Shown: in pieces, positions 2-53,383 of the stretch
Position numbering within the stretch: the first letter of the stretch is position 1
Layout: every line of letters begins with the position of its first letter
IMG/VR virus record: IMGVR_UViG_3300031603_000002
Location: 32,596-96,595 of that record
Strand: one strand, 5' to 3'
Source of the DNA: a virus
Length of the DNA: 64,000 nt
Notes under the pieces: model-generated
What the model was told of the DNA's origin: nothing
What the model saw: only the letters and a program-made list of their open reading frames with translations
The model's database searches: none
Translations under genes and position numbers: made by a program

Positions 2-214
2 CTTCTTTCCGAAATGAACCCTAACGGAACAATTTCTGATGATGAGGACCAGGCACGAGATGATCTTATGGCAGCTGTCGAAATACAGGTCGATGAGCTT
101 GTACAATATATTGAAGAGCAAGCGTGGAAAATCGGCGGAGACTTTAGAGGTCCAGGAATCAGATATCAGGCATTGAAGATTCTCAATAAAAGAGTTCAAA
201 GGAGATCACTATGA
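2..214 (+). CDS. 5'-truncated small protein, probable tagged virion cargo
   Basis: The reading frame is open to the left edge of the window, so the true start lies outside. The first visible residues are LLSE followed by MNPNG. LLSE is the kind of ending seen on the N-terminal leaders of several other genes here (LIRE, LLAE, LLQE), so the first ATG at 14 is probably not the real start. The rest is acidic and helical, ending in a basic RVQRRSL tail. It overlaps the next gene by 4 bp. No family is recognised. Confidence 0.5.
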   Translation, partial: LLSEMNPNGTISDDEDQARDDLMAAVEIQVDELVQYIEEQAWKIGGDFRGPGIRYQALKILNKRVQRRSL

Positions 215-708
215 AAATCACACGCAGACAAATCAGAAATTTGATTAGCGAGCAGTCAGACAACGGTTTTTCAGTTGGCGACACAGTCGTTGCAACAATT
301 TTCGGCAAGGCCAAAAAGGGAAAAATCACAGAAATGCATGGCATGGGTGACATGGCAAGCGTAGATTTTGGAAACGGAGACGTTTATGGAATTATGCTGA
401 ACAGGCTAAAACCTTCGAAACGGGTTAACGAGCAGAACTACGGCCGCGGTCAGAACTATGGGTACTCACCCACTGGTCGTCCACCTCGCAAACGCGGATT
501 TAATCAGGCTAGCTCGGCATCAATGTCAGCGGCAAAATCATTGCGTGCAAAATTCAAACGACGATACCCTGACGCACAGATAAAAATTGATGGCAGAAAC
601 GGGTGGATCATCGTAAATGGAAAGAATGTCGTAAACATGGGTGCCAACGGCGCCAGCAATTATGACGAAATGGCAGAAAAAATGGAAGCTGCGTTATCAG
701 GATTCTAG
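211..708 (+). CDS. Tagged virion-cargo protein with SH3-like segment
   Basis: 165 residues, unknown function. It starts with MKITRRQIRNLISE followed by Q, a basic amphipathic leader ending in an I-S-E site that resembles the T4 capsid targeting sequence cut by the gp21 protease. After the leader comes a segment of short beta strands (VGDTVVATIFGKAKKGKITE) like a KOW/SH3 barrel, a Gly/Arg-rich linker at about residues 75-95, and a C-terminal alpha/beta part. A good Shine-Dalgarno site (aaaggag) precedes the ATG. It sits just before the tail tube gene. The packaging role is inferred from the leader only. Confidence 0.65.
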   Translation: MKITRRQIRNLISEQSDNGFSVGDTVVATIFGKAKKGKITEMHGMGDMASVDFGNGDVYGIMLNRLKPSKRVNEQNYGRGQNYGYSPTGRPPRKRGFNQASSASMSAAKSLRAKFKRRYPDAQIKIDGRNGWIIVNGKNVVNMGANGASNYDEMAEKMEAALSGF

Positions 709-19796: not shown

Positions 19797-20762
19797 ATGA
19801 ATCAGCCTGCCCACCAAGATCGTCCAGTTTTGATTATCGACTTCATGAACATGTTCATCAGGCATTTCAAAGCCAACCCGTCAATGGCATCCACCGGAGA
19901 ACCAGTCGGCGGAGTTATGGGCTTTCTTGGTGGTTTGGGACGGTTGTGCGAAACATACAATCCAAAAAAGGTAATCGTTGTTTTCGAGTCAGGCGGAAGC
20001 CAAAGAAAACGAGCAATTTCAGCGTCGTATAAGAACGGTCGAAAGGCACCGAAAATGAATCGGTACTACGGCGATGACATTCCAACGACACCTGAGAATT
20101 TTGCCATGCAAGTTCTGTTTATTACCCGTGCATTGAAATGTTTGCCGGTGACACAGGTGTACGTCTCAGGCTGCGAAGCAGACGACGTTATAGGTTACCT
20201 AGGCCGGTACCATTTCAAGACGTCCAGGGTCATTCTGGTGTCTTCAGACAAGGATTTCTATCAGCTCATCGATGAACGAGTGCAACAATGGTCGCCCGGA
20301 CAGAAAAAGTTGATTACAGAACAGGCTGTTATAGACAAGTTTGGTGTTTCTCCACAGAATTTTTGTTCAGCGAGGGTGTTCATCGGGGATCCGAGTGACA
20401 ACGTTTCTGGTGTGAAAGGTGTAGGCTTCAAGAATATGGCAAAGTGGTTCCCGCAACTGGGTGGATCCGAGTTCATTAGTCATAACGATGTTGTTGATAG
20501 CGCCATCGAATTGGCGAAAACAAAGGCAGCCAAAACGATTCATCGGATTGCTGAATCTAGAGATTTGGCGCTGAAAAACTGGAGACTGATTTACCTGGAT
20601 ACATCTCAACTATCAGGAGACCAGATTCAAAAGGTAAATCATCAGATTGAAAATGAGGGTGAGGGAAACAAGATGCAGTTGATGCGTCAGTTAATCCAAT
20701 CGGGCATGCAAAAATTTGATATTGATCGACACTTCGCCGCGATTATGTCAATTCGACGCTAG
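19797..20762 (+). CDS. 5'-3' exonuclease / flap nuclease (T4 RNase H-like)
   Basis: 321 residues. Motifs in order: IIDFMNMFIRHF near the start (first metal Asp), VVFESGGSQRKR, ASYKNGRKAP, SGCEADDVIGYLG (acidic cluster), VSSDKDFYQLI and GDPSDNVSGVKGVGFKNMAK (the helix-hairpin-helix region). This is the FEN/T4 RNase H family that removes RNA primers. The ATG at 19797 is preferred over a TTG at 19788. A second member of the family begins at 63349. The stop overlaps a convergent gene's stop in CTAG at 20759-20762. Confidence 0.85.
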   Translation: MNQPAHQDRPVLIIDFMNMFIRHFKANPSMASTGEPVGGVMGFLGGLGRLCETYNPKKVIVVFESGGSQRKRAISASYKNGRKAPKMNRYYGDDIPTTPENFAMQVLFITRALKCLPVTQVYVSGCEADDVIGYLGRYHFKTSRVILVSSDKDFYQLIDERVQQWSPGQKKLITEQAVIDKFGVSPQNFCSARVFIGDPSDNVSGVKGVGFKNMAKWFPQLGGSEFISHNDVVDSAIELAKTKAAKTIHRIAESRDLALKNWRLIYLDTSQLSGDQIQKVNHQIENEGEGNKMQLMRQLIQSGMQKFDIDRHFAAIMSIRR

Positions 20763-21091
20763 CCAGAATATTCTGTGCCCCATTCTTCAACAGCAGCCTG
20801 GACCCGCTGAACAGGGACGCCTTCATCTTCGGCGACTTGTTCAATTGCATACTTCTCAGCGTTATAACCAGGTGCACCGTAAGCAATGTATTCACCAACA
20901 TATTGAGCGAGGTTAAAGTCAGAAGCCTTAGGTGGTCGACTCTGTTGTGGTCTCCGGCGTGGCGTTGAAGCCCCGGGAACCATACGTTGTTCACCATTGT
21001 GATCTGTGTACCAATCAAGCGTTGAATCTCGAATATCAGCCAGTCCGGCTTCACGAATGAGTTTTGTTAGTCGTTTTTTTGTAATTTTCAT
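20759..21091 (-). CDS. Tagged virion-cargo protein (minus strand)
   Basis: 110 residues, starting MKITKKRLTKLIRE then A. The rest has a polar middle with RRRPQQSRPPK and an alpha-helical C-terminus (EQVAEDEGVPVQRVQAAVEE). It overlaps the upstream minus-strand gene by 4 bp and ends tail-to-tail with the 5' nuclease gene. Together the two genes form a small inverted island among + strand replication genes. Function unknown; packaging is inferred from the leader. Confidence 0.65.
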   Translation of the reverse strand: MKITKKRLTKLIREAGLADIRDSTLDWYTDHNGEQRMVPGASTPRRRPQQSRPPKASDFNLAQYVGEYIAYGAPGYNAEKYAIEQVAEDEGVPVQRVQAAVEEWGTEYSG

Positions 21092-21390
21092 TCTGTCCCG
21101 CTTATTAGGTCACGCGTGTTGACTGTAAAGAGTCTGTCTCTACGAAGGTCATACACTTCTGTTCGCGATCCATCATCGCTTGTGCGTCCCACTTCAATTT
21201 CAGTTCCTGCGAGCAGCCACGCTGTTCGTCCTGATGAGCGATTTTGCAGTCCGCCCTGGTTGAGCCATAAAACATCACCGGTCAGGACTTCGCGACTACC
21301 AGGCCCTAGACCGTAATCTTCGAGCTCTGATTGGTGCAAATCAGCATATTCTCGAATGAGCCTTGTCAGGCCATTTTTTGTCATTTTCAT
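21088..21390 (-). CDS. Tagged virion-cargo protein (minus strand)
   Basis: 100 residues, starting MKMTKNGLTRLIRE then Y. The body has a beta-rich C-terminal half (TAWLLAGTEIEVGR, then TEVYDLRRDRLFTVN), possibly SH3-like. AAGGA lies 7 nt upstream of the ATG and an ATATTTA box further upstream. It is first in the two-gene minus-strand island. Unknown function. Confidence 0.65.
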   Translation of the reverse strand: MKMTKNGLTRLIREYADLHQSELEDYGLGPGSREVLTGDVLWLNQGGLQNRSSGRTAWLLAGTEIEVGRTSDDGSRTEVYDLRRDRLFTVNTRDLISGTE

Positions 21391-33473: not shown

Positions 33474-33742
33474 GCGTCCTTGGCAAAATGCCAAAGAAAG
33501 GTGATCTGGTACGCCTGACAAGGCTCGAACTTTCATCGACGACTTTCGGCGAGGTGACAACATATAGTTGCACACGCAATAACTGGCGTCCAGCAATGTG
33601 TTCAGGGGTGACACGCTCACACGATGCGAAATATATAACATTACAATTTCACGACAGAATGGAGTGGTTTTTCTTTGAAGATGATAAAGACAAAGTGCCC
33701 TTCGCAAAATACGAATTAGGAGTAATAGAAAATGGAAAATGA
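33458..33742 (+). CDS. Small protein with GDLVR motif
   Basis: 94 residues. MPKKGDLVRLTRLELSSTTF and following strands suggest a small barrel, similar in style to the GDLVW proteins of this window. Overlaps both neighbours. Function unknown. Confidence 0.5.
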   Translation: MQKWVSVLGKMPKKGDLVRLTRLELSSTTFGEVTTYSCTRNNWRPAMCSGVTRSHDAKYITLQFHDRMEWFFFEDDKDKVPFAKYELGVIENGK

Positions 33743-34244
33743 AATCAAATATGTCAATGGTGACGCAACAAAACCAATCGGTGAAGGTATAAAGTATATC
33801 ACGCATATCTGTAATGATATCGGGGGATGGGGACGCGGGTTTGTCCTGTCTCTATCGAAGGAACATCCGCATGCTGAAACAGCATACCGGTCGTGGTATC
33901 AGCAGAATGATGATGAGTTGTTTGAGCTTGGACGCGTCCAGCTCGTCGAGTCGAAGGATAAAATCACCGTCGTGAACATGATTGGCCAGCATGGCATCTT
34001 TACCAAAGATGGCGTACCCCCAATTCGCTATCCTGCTGTTCGATCTTGCTTCCACCAGGTTGCGAAGTTTGCAATAGGTGTTGGCGCCTCGGTTCACATG
34101 CCTCGAATTGGTTGTGGGTTGGCAGGCGGTAAATGGTCTGAGATTGAGAAAATCGTGAACGAAGAGTTGATCGCGAAGGGCATCGAAGTCTATGTGTATG
34201 ATTTCGACACAAAAGATGCCCGCACAATCCCTTGGAAGAAGTAA
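33732..34244 (+). CDS. Macro domain protein (ADP-ribose binding/hydrolase)
   Basis: 170 residues, a single macro domain. IKYVNGDATKPIGEGIKYIT gives the first strand and the D-A-x-x-P loop; HICNDIGGWGRGFVLSLSKE holds the Asn/Gly-rich ADP-ribose loop; MIGQHG and MPRIGCGLAGGKW form the phosphate loop. This matches the Poa1p/ALC1-like group that removes ADP-ribose-1''-phosphate or ADP-ribosyl-glutamate. It could reverse host or phage ADP-ribosylation or process tRNA-splicing by-products. A candidate ART is encoded at 43268-44191. Confidence 0.82.
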   Translation: MENEIKYVNGDATKPIGEGIKYITHICNDIGGWGRGFVLSLSKEHPHAETAYRSWYQQNDDELFELGRVQLVESKDKITVVNMIGQHGIFTKDGVPPIRYPAVRSCFHQVAKFAIGVGASVHMPRIGCGLAGGKWSEIEKIVNEELIAKGIEVYVYDFDTKDARTIPWKK

Positions 34245-34788: not shown

Positions 34789-35127
34789 ATGAAAATCACA
34801 AAAAACCAATTGCGCAGACTGGTTCGAGAGCAACTTGAGCCCAGTTCAAAATGGGAAGTGCTTGTCAGGCATTCACAAGATCCTAATGCTATAAAGGGTG
34901 CTCCAGGCGTCCAAGAAGCTCTGCGGGCTCTAGCACTCGAGGTTTCCGAGCTTGGCGTATATAGCGATCAGCATGGCGCCGCGATGGACATACTCGAATC
35001 CGCCGGAATGTCATACAAGGACACGTACCAATATGCAGAAGATGCTATGCGGAATTACGGTAATGTTGAAGAAGGCGATGAAGATTGGGACGACGAAGGC
35101 GAAGGCGACGGCGAAGAAGACTGGTAG
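34789..35127 (+). CDS. Tagged virion-cargo protein with acidic tail
   Basis: 112 residues, starting MKITKNQLRRLVRE then Q. The middle is helical (QEALRALALEVSELGVYS) and the tail is strongly acidic (GDEDWDDEGEGDGEEDW). AGGGGAAA precedes the ATG and GATACTTAGTGT lies 20 nt further up. A DNA-mimic-like acidic tail on a packaged protein would fit an injected inhibitor, but that is a guess. Confidence 0.65.
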   Translation: MKITKNQLRRLVREQLEPSSKWEVLVRHSQDPNAIKGAPGVQEALRALALEVSELGVYSDQHGAAMDILESAGMSYKDTYQYAEDAMRNYGNVEEGDEDWDDEGEGDGEEDW

Positions 35128-41337: not shown

Positions 41338-42220
41338 CCAATGTGATGATACGTTCAGAAAAACGTTTGGTTTCACAAAAAGATTTCATTTTTGTTCAAA
41401 GAAATGTGTATACGCAGCCCAAAGAAAAGGCGGTGTGTCGTATGAACTAAGAAAGAAAAGGTCACTTGAAAAGCATGGTACAGAATTTCCGATGTCAACT
41501 GACGCCGTCAAAAACACCCGCAGAAAAAACGTTAGGGCGAAATATGGTGTCGACAGCGTGTTTCAACTTGAAAGCATGAAGGAAAAGTCAAAACAGACAT
41601 GCCTTGAAAAGTACGGTGTTGAGGTTTATTCACAGGTTGATGAGTTTAAGGAACGCATCGCAGCAACTAACATGACGAAATTTGGCTATGGATCTCCAAT
41701 CGAAAATCCTGACGTTTTGGCGCGCCGCCGTACAACAATGCTTCGATTGTATGGAGGTCGATCAACATTCGAATCGCCTGTATTGCGCGAGCGAGCAAAA
41801 CGAACATGCCTTGAAAGATACGGTGTGCCAAATATCGTTTATTCACCATCATTTATTAGTTCATCGATGGACAAAAAACTCATGAAAACCCATGGTAAGA
41901 CATGGCAGCAATACAAAGACGAGCTACCTGCAAATCACGATTATAGACGAAGGGTCGATCATGTAACGAGAATGCAGCCAATTCATTTGCTTCAAAACAG
42001 CGAAAAAAGAGGTGAGTATCACTTGGACCACAAATATTCAGTAGCAGAAGGCTTCAGGAATAACGTCCCAGTTGAAATTATCGGGAGCATTGCAAATCTT
42101 GAATTTATACCCGCGACTGATAACATGAAAAAGGGCGCAGCATGCTCTATTACTGAACAACAGTTACGAAAACTATACTATACTAATCTAAAGGAGAACA
42201 CAAACAATGAAAACACATAA
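41282..42220 (+). CDS. HNH homing endonuclease with repeated DNA-binding modules
   Basis: 312 residues from the ATG at 41282. The N-terminus has CDQC and FCSKKC (zinc site). Then come several copies of a roughly 30-residue unit: KHGTEFPMSTDAVKNTRRKN, KYGVDSVFQLESMKEKSKQT, KYGVEVYSQVDEFKERIA, YGSPIENPDVLARRRTT and RYGVPNIVYSP, a NUMOD-like array for DNA contact. The C-terminal nuclease is GEYHLDHKYSVAEGFRNNVP, then ANLEFIPATDNMKKG. A free-standing homing gene whose 5' end lies inside the RHH gene and whose 3' end overlaps the next gene by 14 bp. Confidence 0.8.
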   Translation: MLVEITRENGIREAILKCDQCDDTFRKTFGFTKRFHFCSKKCVYAAQRKGGVSYELRKKRSLEKHGTEFPMSTDAVKNTRRKNVRAKYGVDSVFQLESMKEKSKQTCLEKYGVEVYSQVDEFKERIAATNMTKFGYGSPIENPDVLARRRTTMLRLYGGRSTFESPVLRERAKRTCLERYGVPNIVYSPSFISSSMDKKLMKTHGKTWQQYKDELPANHDYRRRVDHVTRMQPIHLLQNSEKRGEYHLDHKYSVAEGFRNNVPVEIIGSIANLEFIPATDNMKKGAACSITEQQLRKLYYTNLKENTNNENT

Positions 42221-42662
42221 ATGCTATCTTGCAGCCGGCTGGTTCAATCCCATTCAAGCCCAGGAACTAGATAAACTCGAGTCAGTACTTGACACCCGAG
42301 CCGATTGGATTGACTTAGCATCACCACGCAGAATCTTTATTTGCCCGCCAAACGCGTCAAAGGAGGTTCAAGACTCTACATACCATGGTAACCTGAAGCA
42401 TATTCGTGAGGCAGATTTTTTGATTGCAAATACGCGCGATAAAGATTTGGGTACGATCATGGAATGCGGCTATGCCGCAGCACATAAAAAACCGATCGTT
42501 TATTTCTGTGACGGACTGCCAGCGGGCGCCAAGTTCAATTTGATGCTGGCAAGATCGGCAATCAAGGTATGCACCTCATTCGACGAGCTTAATGATTACC
42601 TCGACCGATGCCACACGGCAGGTGAGCTTTTGGAGGAGCCATATGACGCAGCAATCGAATAA
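42207..42662 (+). CDS. Nucleoside 2-deoxyribosyltransferase-like protein
   Basis: 151 residues. CYLAAGWFNPIQAQELDKLE is the first strand and loop of the NDT fold, YHGNLKHIREADFLIANTRD contains the base-binding Asp, and DLGTIMECGYAAAHKKPIVY contains the catalytic Glu (T-I-M-E-C-G). NDTs swap bases on deoxynucleosides; related proteins bind or cleave nucleotide signals. AAAGGAGAA lies upstream within the end of the HNH gene. Either pyrimidine salvage or counter-signalling is possible. Confidence 0.75.
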   Translation: MKTHKCYLAAGWFNPIQAQELDKLESVLDTRADWIDLASPRRIFICPPNASKEVQDSTYHGNLKHIREADFLIANTRDKDLGTIMECGYAAAHKKPIVYFCDGLPAGAKFNLMLARSAIKVCTSFDELNDYLDRCHTAGELLEEPYDAAIE

Positions 42663-42951: not shown

Positions 42952-43271
42952 TTCGCGGTACCTGCAAGGTTGGTGACTTAGTTTGGACGATCGGCCGAGG
43001 TATGCCGCATGCTGTTCGTCCTGGTTTGGTGACACGAGTAATAGCACCAACACACATCGAGTCGACATGGGATAAATATGAAGTCCTAGTCGATGGCCAG
43101 AAGAAAGAATTTTATGCAGAAAGCGTTTGTGAGTCAGAGGAGAAAGCTGAAAAGGTAGCTGTTGAATGCCGCCGCAACTCAGTCAGTCGTACAGGACAAA
43201 CATACCTTGAATCTGGTTTTGTTTATGCTCCGTATGTCCCGTTGGAAGTCACACCAACGCTGGTTGTTTAG
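42948..43271 (+). CDS. Small protein with GDLVW motif
   Basis: 107 residues. CKVGDLVWTIGRGMPHAVRP, then strands LVTRVIAPTHIES and KYEVLVDGQKKEFYAESV, suggest an SH3/KOW-like barrel. The opening closely matches the gene at 28855. It ends 4 bp inside the convergent ART-like gene. Function unknown. Confidence 0.55.
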   Translation: MIRGTCKVGDLVWTIGRGMPHAVRPGLVTRVIAPTHIESTWDKYEVLVDGQKKEFYAESVCESEEKAEKVAVECRRNSVSRTGQTYLESGFVYAPYVPLEVTPTLVV

Positions 43272-44191
43272 GGCCAGTTGGCCATAGCGGCTGCTTCATC
43301 ACGCAAAAACTTTTTGTAGCCGGCGGCACTTTCCACATCAACTGAAATAGCTGCCGCTGGAATTCTTGAGTATGTCCAAAACGATTTGCCTTTGTACCGC
43401 GACGTGGCAAATTCTGAATCTTCATAAAATTTCGTTCCGGGCAGCAATTTGCTCGTGTCAATTCTAAGAAACGTATAGTCCTCATAGTCGGATGCACTCG
43501 CGTCCGGACCATCATCCTGAAATGAAAAGGAGAGCTCGTCTGCCAATTCAAGACTTTGTGTGACGTATACTCGCGGGGAGTATTGCCGACCTTGTTTAAG
43601 CTTTTCTCCCGACTCGCTGTCTTTCCACTTATCTTCTTCAGTTGCATGCGACGCCTGCCGAGGGATTAATCCCTGTCGCAGGATCTTTTTTACGTCGTGT
43701 GATCTGGTGACGTGATATAGGTGAGATTCTGTTTCACTTACACGGTCGCCATAGTTTCTTTCGAGGTTATAACGAAGTTCTCGGGCAGGTGGTGGCCGAT
43801 GATTTGCAGAAAGAACCGACCATCCATAATTTTTAGATGTTTTTCGAATTATATCGTCTGCACGTTTTTCGACCATCGTTCTAATTGGTCCTGGGCTCAA
43901 AAATTGAGAAATATAAAACTCTATGACAACATATCCTGAGCCTCGATGTTGTTGCGCGATGTGTGACGCGTTCGAAATATCATCACGGACAAACCTTTCT
44001 AGCTTGTCATCATCACGAAGACCTGTCGATCCACGCAGTTTCGCTTTCATTTCACTCTTCGCGTCCGGCTCAGACAAAAGTTTCTTGATTTCTAAATTCA
44101 GGCGCTTTACTAAATGCTCAGCACCGACGGGCTGCATGCGTTTCTCAGCGAGTAATGTTTCACGAATTAATTGACGAAGTGTGTTAGTCAT
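43268..44191 (-). CDS. Tagged ADP-ribosyltransferase-like protein (Alt-like role)
   Basis: 307 residues from the ATG at 44191; a longer frame exists upstream but the leader MTNTLRQLIRETLLAE then K starts here. L-A-E at residues 14-16 is a gp21-type site. Residues 157-178 (HLYHVTRSHDVKKILRQGLI) and 207-218 (RVYVTQSLELAD), the acidic strand YTFLRIDTSKLLPG, and the final SRIPAAAISV resemble the NAD-binding H-x-T type of ADP-ribosyltransferase (Tpt1/DarT-like). T4 packages Alt, an ART with a similar leader, and injects it to modify host RNA polymerase. The catalytic Glu is not assigned. Confidence 0.65.
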   Translation of the reverse strand: MTNTLRQLIRETLLAEKRMQPVGAEHLVKRLNLEIKKLLSEPDAKSEMKAKLRGSTGLRDDDKLERFVRDDISNASHIAQQHRGSGYVVIEFYISQFLSPGPIRTMVEKRADDIIRKTSKNYGWSVLSANHRPPPARELRYNLERNYGDRVSETESHLYHVTRSHDVKKILRQGLIPRQASHATEEDKWKDSESGEKLKQGRQYSPRVYVTQSLELADELSFSFQDDGPDASASDYEDYTFLRIDTSKLLPGTKFYEDSEFATSRYKGKSFWTYSRIPAAAISVDVESAAGYKKFLRDEAAAMANWP

Positions 44192-44196
44192 ATCAT

Positions 44197-44203
44197 TAAA
44201 TAT
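44197..44203 (-). promoter_or_regulatory. ATATTTA-N5-ATG motif for the ART-like gene (minus strand)
   Basis: ATATTTA read on the minus strand, then ATGAT, then the ATG at 44191. No Shine-Dalgarno site. TTACAC is 18 nt upstream of TATTTA and is the complement of the GTGTAA used by the divergent promoter. Confidence 0.5.
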
Positions 44204-53146: not shown

Positions 53147-53383
53147 ATGGCAAAGATTTCAAAAACAGAATTACGTAAGTTGATCAAAGAACAATTCACC
53201 GGGGATGGAACAAGTGCCGCTGATGTTGCATTATGGGAAGCCGTTAATGATTATCTGGCACTGAAAGAAGAAGAGCTGGGGTATAATACGATGGGAGGCC
53301 AGCTTGTTGACGAGTGCATGAGAGTTGTTAAAGAAGCCCTTGCTGACGCAGAAGGTGTCGGCTACGGTCCGGGTGGATACTAA
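53147..53383 (+). CDS. Small tagged virion-cargo protein
   Basis: 78 residues, starting MAKISKTELRKLIKE then Q, one of the clearest leaders. The body is helical (ADVALWEAVNDYLALKEEEL) with a Gly-rich end (GVGYGPGGY). First gene of the second virion cluster. Function unknown. Confidence 0.7.
   Translation: MAKISKTELRKLIKEQFTGDGTSAADVALWEAVNDYLALKEEELGYNTMGGQLVDECMRVVKEALADAEGVGYGPGGY

Follow-up and report, generated by a model that had tools for sequence, protein, structure and literature searches.

An ADP-ribosyltransferase-fold protein with a candidate capsid-targeting leader, nearest to KptA, in a large virus genome

We analyzed a 64,000-nucleotide stretch of viral DNA (hereafter the window; bases 32596-96595 of the 96,595-base IMG/VR record IMGVR_UViG_3300031603_000002) that carries a minus-strand gene for a protein denoted P0001. 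A preliminary description made from the letters alone had P0001 combine an N-terminal packaging leader with an ADP-ribosyltransferase (ART)-like domain. The sequence features behind this are confirmed: the frame is open over 307 amino acids without an internal stop, begins with MTNTLRQLIRETLLAE, and contains LYHVT (residues 158-162), ILRQGL (170-175), RVYVTQS (207-213), and IPAAAIS (277-283), all of which fall in conserved columns of a family alignment. The start codon is further backed by a promoter-like ATAYTTA-class element 12 bases before the ATG. The gene, its parts, and the other features discussed are located in Table 1.

Single-sequence searches of Pfam, PHROGs, and PDB with P0001 gave no significant match, and megablast of window 40000-64000 against a phage collection gave no near relative; relatives were reached through profiles. 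A translated search returned weak C-terminal matches in two uncultured huge phages (LR756508 and LR756501), which when aligned have LYHxT, IL..GL.P, RVY/RIY, FY.D, and IP motifs in common with P0001. Profile searches of viral contigs found relatives on more than 30 large-phage contigs, several of them 132-414 kb long; further relatives, in Prevotella Lak phages and other huge phages, came from the phage collection, and one profile scan of genome contigs yielded a single relative, on a contig of a rumen Bacteroidales metagenome-assembled genome. The resulting alignment, A6, holds 32 family sequences with about 20% identity to P0001. Nearly invariant in it are Y159, H160 (31/32), K169, I170, G174, L175, R207 (30/32), Y209 (29/32, with Y or F in 31/32), D258 (32/32), T273 (32/32), and the final IPP motif.

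The ART fold is almost certain on profile and model evidence. The A6 profile matched Tpt1/KptA (E = 4.5e-5) and DarT1 (E = 1.5e-3) in PDB, and an earlier 12-sequence profile matched DarT1 (E = 9e-5) and KptA (E = 9e-4). AlphaFold given 14 sequences modeled the N-terminal half poorly; a second model, built with A6, took the place of the first (mean predicted local distance difference test score, pLDDT, 75.7) and scores mostly 70-97 across the ART domain, the loop 181-200 excepted. With both models, Foldseek ranks 1-18 were all Tpt1/KptA (best E = 1.2e-6, A6 model). Template modeling scores for these matches were moderate (TMt 0.43-0.49), as expected if the N-terminal part of P0001 differs from that of Tpt1/KptA; this part matched ribosomal protein S6 permutants (Foldseek E = 0.004-0.02) and not the Tpt1 winged helix. 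In the comparison with Tpt1, DarT, and Alt that the preliminary description had proposed, profile and model both put Tpt1/KptA first and DarT1 second, and do not point to Alt.

The pocket residues expected of an NAD-binding ART are present in part. The family has the NAD-contacting histidine of strand 1 and the aromatic residue of strand 2, and R207, D258, and T273 are kept with them, but strand 5 does not begin with the catalytic glutamate or aspartate: the column holds S270 in P0001 and G, A, C, or S in 32/32 members. To our knowledge, KptA also lacks the catalytic glutamate and works without it, so its absence does not exclude P0001 from the ART superfamily, and the near-invariance of H160, R207, Y209, D258, and T273 despite the low identity suggests an active pocket. 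Catalytic activity is predicted as likely. As judged from sequence and model, P0001 falls in the ART superfamily, in a family that is apparently unnamed and has KptA as its nearest kin, and it is not itself KptA, DarT, or Alt.

AlphaFold predicts a helix at residues 3-17 of P0001, and the leader offers two candidate prohead-protease cuts, one after residue 11 (IRE↓T) and one after residue 16 (LAE↓K; the arrow marks the cut). In 30/31 relatives, a hydrophobic-x-E↓G/A sequence marks the junction between the conserved domain and a leader that varies in length (for example LKE↓GLI, ITE↓GVF, LNE↓GLI, and IHE↓GGV), the exception being ENE↓G. As in T4-type capsid targeting, the short (I/L)xE leader is accompanied in the same genome by a gp21-type prohead protease (PF03420, E = 5e-25) and a gp23-type capsid protein (PF07068, E = 1.5e-77), and the expected cut of this capsid protein, VIRE↓A by eye from the sequence, matches LIRE↓T of the leader. 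Capsid cut sites read by eye in genomes bearing relatives were LKE↓A, LME↓A, VVE↓T, INE↓A, LRE↓A, MTE↓A, and VTE↓T. PF03420 was found in 19/26 family-bearing records (17 over the cut-off; those without it may be fragments) and in 0/14 control genomes, which do not amount to a base rate among comparable large phages. The capsid-protein family PF07068 likewise occurs in the majority of the family-bearing records. A tblastn search of the phage collection with a 22-residue consensus leader gave no match, which says little at such length. The capsid proteins closest to that of this genome are those of LR756508, Rhodothermus phage RM378, and Flavobacterium phage immuto, which makes a Bacteroidota host plausible. 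Outside the window, a portal-like open reading frame (ORF; L004:3557-6619, plus strand) shows by eye an apparent intein with a homing-endonuclease-like insert.

The preliminary description had extended the packaging idea to all genes tagged in this way, and these do look like a set. The leader motif class has 13 of its 20 occurrences in the first 31 residues of the genome's ORFs (binomial p = 5e-8, with one gene counted twice and the motif drawn from these same leaders). Over ten 20-kb regions, the enrichment of xE↓A/G/S within the first 45 residues is 1.6-fold (p = 0.001). Two internal matches of the leader motif class lie in acidic proteins that might be cut as well, one scaffold-like (LRRMVRE↓AAEDE) and one at G000:90028-91215 (LNMLIKE↓AMEDE). 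Tagged neighbors recur in relatives: the P0001 homologue of LR756508 lies amid tagged ORFs such as MKIKEKKLRKIINEE, MKLTQTKLQKLIKEE, and MRLSERKLRRIVKEE; the same region of another genome (G012) has MIKLLDILRE, MIKLLEVLNE, and MIKFSNILNE; and LR756502 has MIKKWNQFINE and MKRFSDKINE.

Two further tagged genes were seen elsewhere. One, outside the window (L005:4909-5628, minus strand, the same as G000:C1:20708-21427), is preceded by ATATTTA at a distance of exactly 12 bases from the ATG; by eye (TLYRIDKRP, GIFMSTNP, GTEVLI) its product, which has no database match, could be an R-S-E type ART. A search for relatives of this protein found none, and its PDB matches to designed repeat proteins were set aside as looking like composition. 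The other (L147:18846-19367, plus strand) encodes a leader-tagged protein, VIKLLDILREAKQAGTLYHYTT, with an LYHYT motif and no Pfam match, and is perhaps a further ART.

The T4 late promoter TATAAATA, tried first, was nearly absent. The element ATAYTTA was spotted by reading upstream sequences and tested afterwards: of its 29 occurrences in the genome, 23 lie close to same-strand ORF starts, a result that no other among 140 letter permutations equaled (mean 3.2). It lies upstream of the capsid protein (-27), the scaffold-like protein (-24), several other structural-region ORFs, and P0001 (-12), which suggests that P0001 is co-expressed with the head genes. Furthermore, it is commoner before tagged genes (9/15, or 9/14 since one tagged gene was counted twice) than before others (14/107; Fisher p = 1.6e-4). 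In four genes (P0001, G000:C1 21427(-), 49881(+), and 78396(+)), the element is followed by five bases and then the ATG; this spacing leaves little room for a Shine-Dalgarno sequence and suggests leaderless mRNA, so that leaderless late transcripts are possible for these four.

The P0001-type domain also occurs within longer polypeptides. In one relative (L097:2-3205, plus strand) it belongs to a polyvalent protein, at least 1067 amino acids long, that contains three stretches of ART-PolyVal (E = 9.8e-33). NIHE↓AGG and NIHE↓GGV linkers recur in this protein and may be where a protease separates its domains. In another relative (L020), the P0001-type domain lies between PARP-like and ART-PolyVal regions. 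The window also encodes a Macro-domain protein, which matched 2afc (E = 3e-60), the 5e3b macrodomain (E = 4e-49), and the ADP-ribose 1''-phosphate phosphatase 6lfu (E = 1.7e-7) by phmmer against PDB; Pfam missed it at E = 0.01, and a search of the genome scored it under the Macro cut-off. This protein could be a partner that processes or reverses ADP-ribose products.

Table 1 Features of the window (positions are those of the window)
Feature	Position	Strand	Basis
ART-like gene P0001, 307 aa	43268-44191	-	open frame; family alignment A6; AlphaFold and Foldseek
Leader MTNTLRQLIRETLLAE (residues 1-16), with candidate cleavage by the prohead protease following IRE-11 (base 44159) and LAE-16 (base 44144)	44144-44191	-	helix, relatives, capsid site
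N-terminal domain, about residues 20-150: helices, then alpha/beta part with S6-like resemblance	43742-44134	-	AlphaFold secondary structure; Foldseek
ART domain, residues 157-286: H160, R207, Y209, D258, S270, T273	43334-43723	-	column counts; Foldseek ranks 1-18 Tpt1/KptA
Promoter-like element ATATTTA (ATAYTTA class), starts 12 bases before P0001 ATG	44197-44203	-	upstream reading and permutation test
Leader-tagged gene MKITRRQIRNLISEQ	211-708	+	leader motif
Leader-tagged gene MKITKKRLTKLIREAG	20759-21091	-	leader motif
Leader-tagged gene MKMTKNGLTRLIREYA, ATATTTA upstream	21088-21390	-	leader motif and promoter-like element
Leader-tagged gene MKITKNQLRRLVREQ, ATACTTA upstream	34789-35127	+	leader motif and promoter-like element
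Leader-tagged gene MAKISKTELRKLIKEQ, ATATTTA upstream	53147-53383	+	leader motif and promoter-like element
Macro-domain protein	33732-34244	+	phmmer vs PDB

Near the P0001 gene, at window 42207-42662 (+), lies a nucleoside 2-deoxyribosyltransferase gene (PF05014, E = 7e-14).

We lean toward the reading that P0001 is a late-expressed, leader-targeted, protease-trimmed, and injected KptA-like ART, that is, a virion-delivered effector. Late in infection, its gene would be transcribed, at the same time as those for the head, from an ATAYTTA promoter of its own; the N-terminal helix LRQLIRE would dock on the scaffold core in the manner of a T4 capsid targeting sequence; the gp21-type protease would cut after IRE-11 or LAE-16 to leave a mature protein of about 291-296 amino acids in the head; and this protein would enter the next cell with the DNA and use host NAD+ there by means of its KptA-like ART domain. 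Packaging with removal of the leader is quite probable, and the idea gains support from the conserved cut site, the protease and capsid genes, the promoter-like element, the tagged neighbors, and the ART-PolyVal fusions. Because the catalytic glutamate is absent, as it seems to be in KptA, the acceptor is likelier to be a nucleophile reactive without activation, for instance an RNA or DNA phosphate, than a protein side chain of the kind modified by Alt, and we give a nucleic-acid phosphate roughly an even chance. Several observations weigh against virion delivery of an active enzyme. The gene sits amid replication and metabolism genes, outside the head cluster; P0001 has T or K after its candidate cuts and not the G/A of its relatives; the xE pattern is short and frequent; and the loss of the glutamate throughout the family leaves activity not assured. 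The limits given above for the protease controls and for the way in which ATAYTTA was found count on the same side.

The closeness of the fold to KptA raises the alternative of RNA repair, in which P0001 would remove the 2'-phosphate from repaired tRNA inside the infected cell while the Macro protein, with its similarity to ADP-ribose 1''-phosphate phosphatase, handled the ADP-ribose phosphate product; some jumbo phages do carry KptA for tRNA repair (PMC9503650). We consider this unlikely, as no family member exceeds the 26-bit cut-off of Pfam PF01885 (best E = 0.011; 13.5-15.7 bits among 12 members; no match for P0001), and as RNA repair leaves the leader, the conserved xE↓G junction, and the ART-PolyVal fusion unexplained. 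A DarT-like toxin domain, used within the cell against host or competing phage DNA and restrained by the phage Macro protein without any packaging, would suit the second rank of DarT1 in the profile search, the weak matches of PADLOC DarT to 7/32 family members, and the presence of the Macro protein. It is nevertheless quite improbable: the glutamate essential to DarT (PMC11543638) is the one replaced in 32/32 members, the Macro gene is about 9 kb off and not adjacent, and the leader and cut site are again unaccounted for.

The leader might also be an ordinary amphipathic helix of a cytoplasmic protein and no packaging tag, with xE arising by chance in acidic N-termini. The brevity and frequency of [LI]xE and the enrichment of only 1.6-fold would agree with this, whereas the 30/31 conservation at the domain junction, the match to the capsid-protein cut motif, the association of tags with the promoter-like element, and the clustering of tagged genes argue against it, and we hold it to be improbable. 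P0001 could finally be packaged and yet catalytically dead, an ART fold that works through binding of NAD+, ADP-ribose, or nucleic acid; a decoy or an inhibitor would be examples. The lack of the glutamate in 32/32 members is what such a protein would show; given the five nearly invariant pocket residues and, as far as we know, the activity of KptA without that glutamate, this too is very unlikely.

A wider proposal, which we regard as speculative and rather doubtful, is that large T4-headed phages use a delivery code in which a leader specific to the genome, combined with an xE↓G/A/S cut, marks a whole set of proteins for loading and injection, and that polyvalent proteins are polyproteins split by the prohead protease at xE↓(A/G) linkers into several ARTs in the head, including a KptA-like ART that would modify nucleic-acid phosphates on entry. 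Since the cut motif of a leader can be checked against the capsid protein of the same phage, the injected set would become predictable from sequence. The family adds a KptA-like ART without the usual catalytic glutamate, recurrent in large phages, to the enzymes that phages may use during the opening minutes of infection. That phages package ARTs in their heads has already been proposed for the class in general (PMC9503650, PMC5512222), and for about 44% of phage ARTs the context hints at packaging (PMC9503650); what is new here is the P0001 family and the evidence from leader, cut site, and promoter-like element, for which we found no earlier description in the literature.

Among known systems, Tpt1/KptA is the best profile and fold match, with LYHxT, GLxP, and the final IPP.I in the same order, the H-x-T of the NAD lobe, and likewise no glutamate at the third ART position. 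The P0001 family differs in lacking the Arg-His-Arg-Arg tetrad and winged-helix lobe of Tpt1/KptA, with no conserved Arg-His pair and no recognizable winged-helix RNA lobe (R207 may be the fourth residue of the tetrad), and P0001 carries a leader and an unlike N-terminal domain. DarT1/DarT2, the second-best profile match (E = 1.5e-3 to 9e-5), has the same core fold, but P0001 has S270 opposite DarT1 E152, an essential residue (E152A in the crystallized protein; PMC11543638), and no antitoxin gene is adjacent. The ART-PolyVal proteins (PF18760), predicted to be injected by phages as parts of polyvalent proteins (PMC5512222), occur in the same polypeptides as P0001-type domains; they form a distinct family with an H-Y-D active site (PMC5512222), P0001 stands alone, and PF18760 matches are confined to other regions of the two fused relatives, with none in P0001.

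With respect to delivery, T4 Alt and the T4 internal proteins carry short leaders cut by gp21 (PMC5694885, PMC3012670). Those of the internal proteins, 10-20 residues ending in an xE cut site, are common to unrelated proteins of one phage, as here, although the leader letters of P0001 (LRxLIRE) are different and its packaging is predicted from sequence. Like P0001, Alt is a phage ART whose short N-terminal leader ends in (I/L)xE, and it comes from a genome with the same kinds of protease and capsid protein. The preliminary description had suggested that P0001 may be an independent or very diverged counterpart of Alt. The independent solution fits; the diverged Alt is rejected on active-site class, since Alt is an R-S-E ART (PMC5512222) and P0001, without sequence similarity to Alt or a Pfam match to Alt, ModA, or ModB, has H and Y at the first two positions and no glutamate. 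As P0001 is KptA-like and has no catalytic glutamate, its analogy to Alt lies in delivery, and not in ART subclass or demonstrated chemistry.
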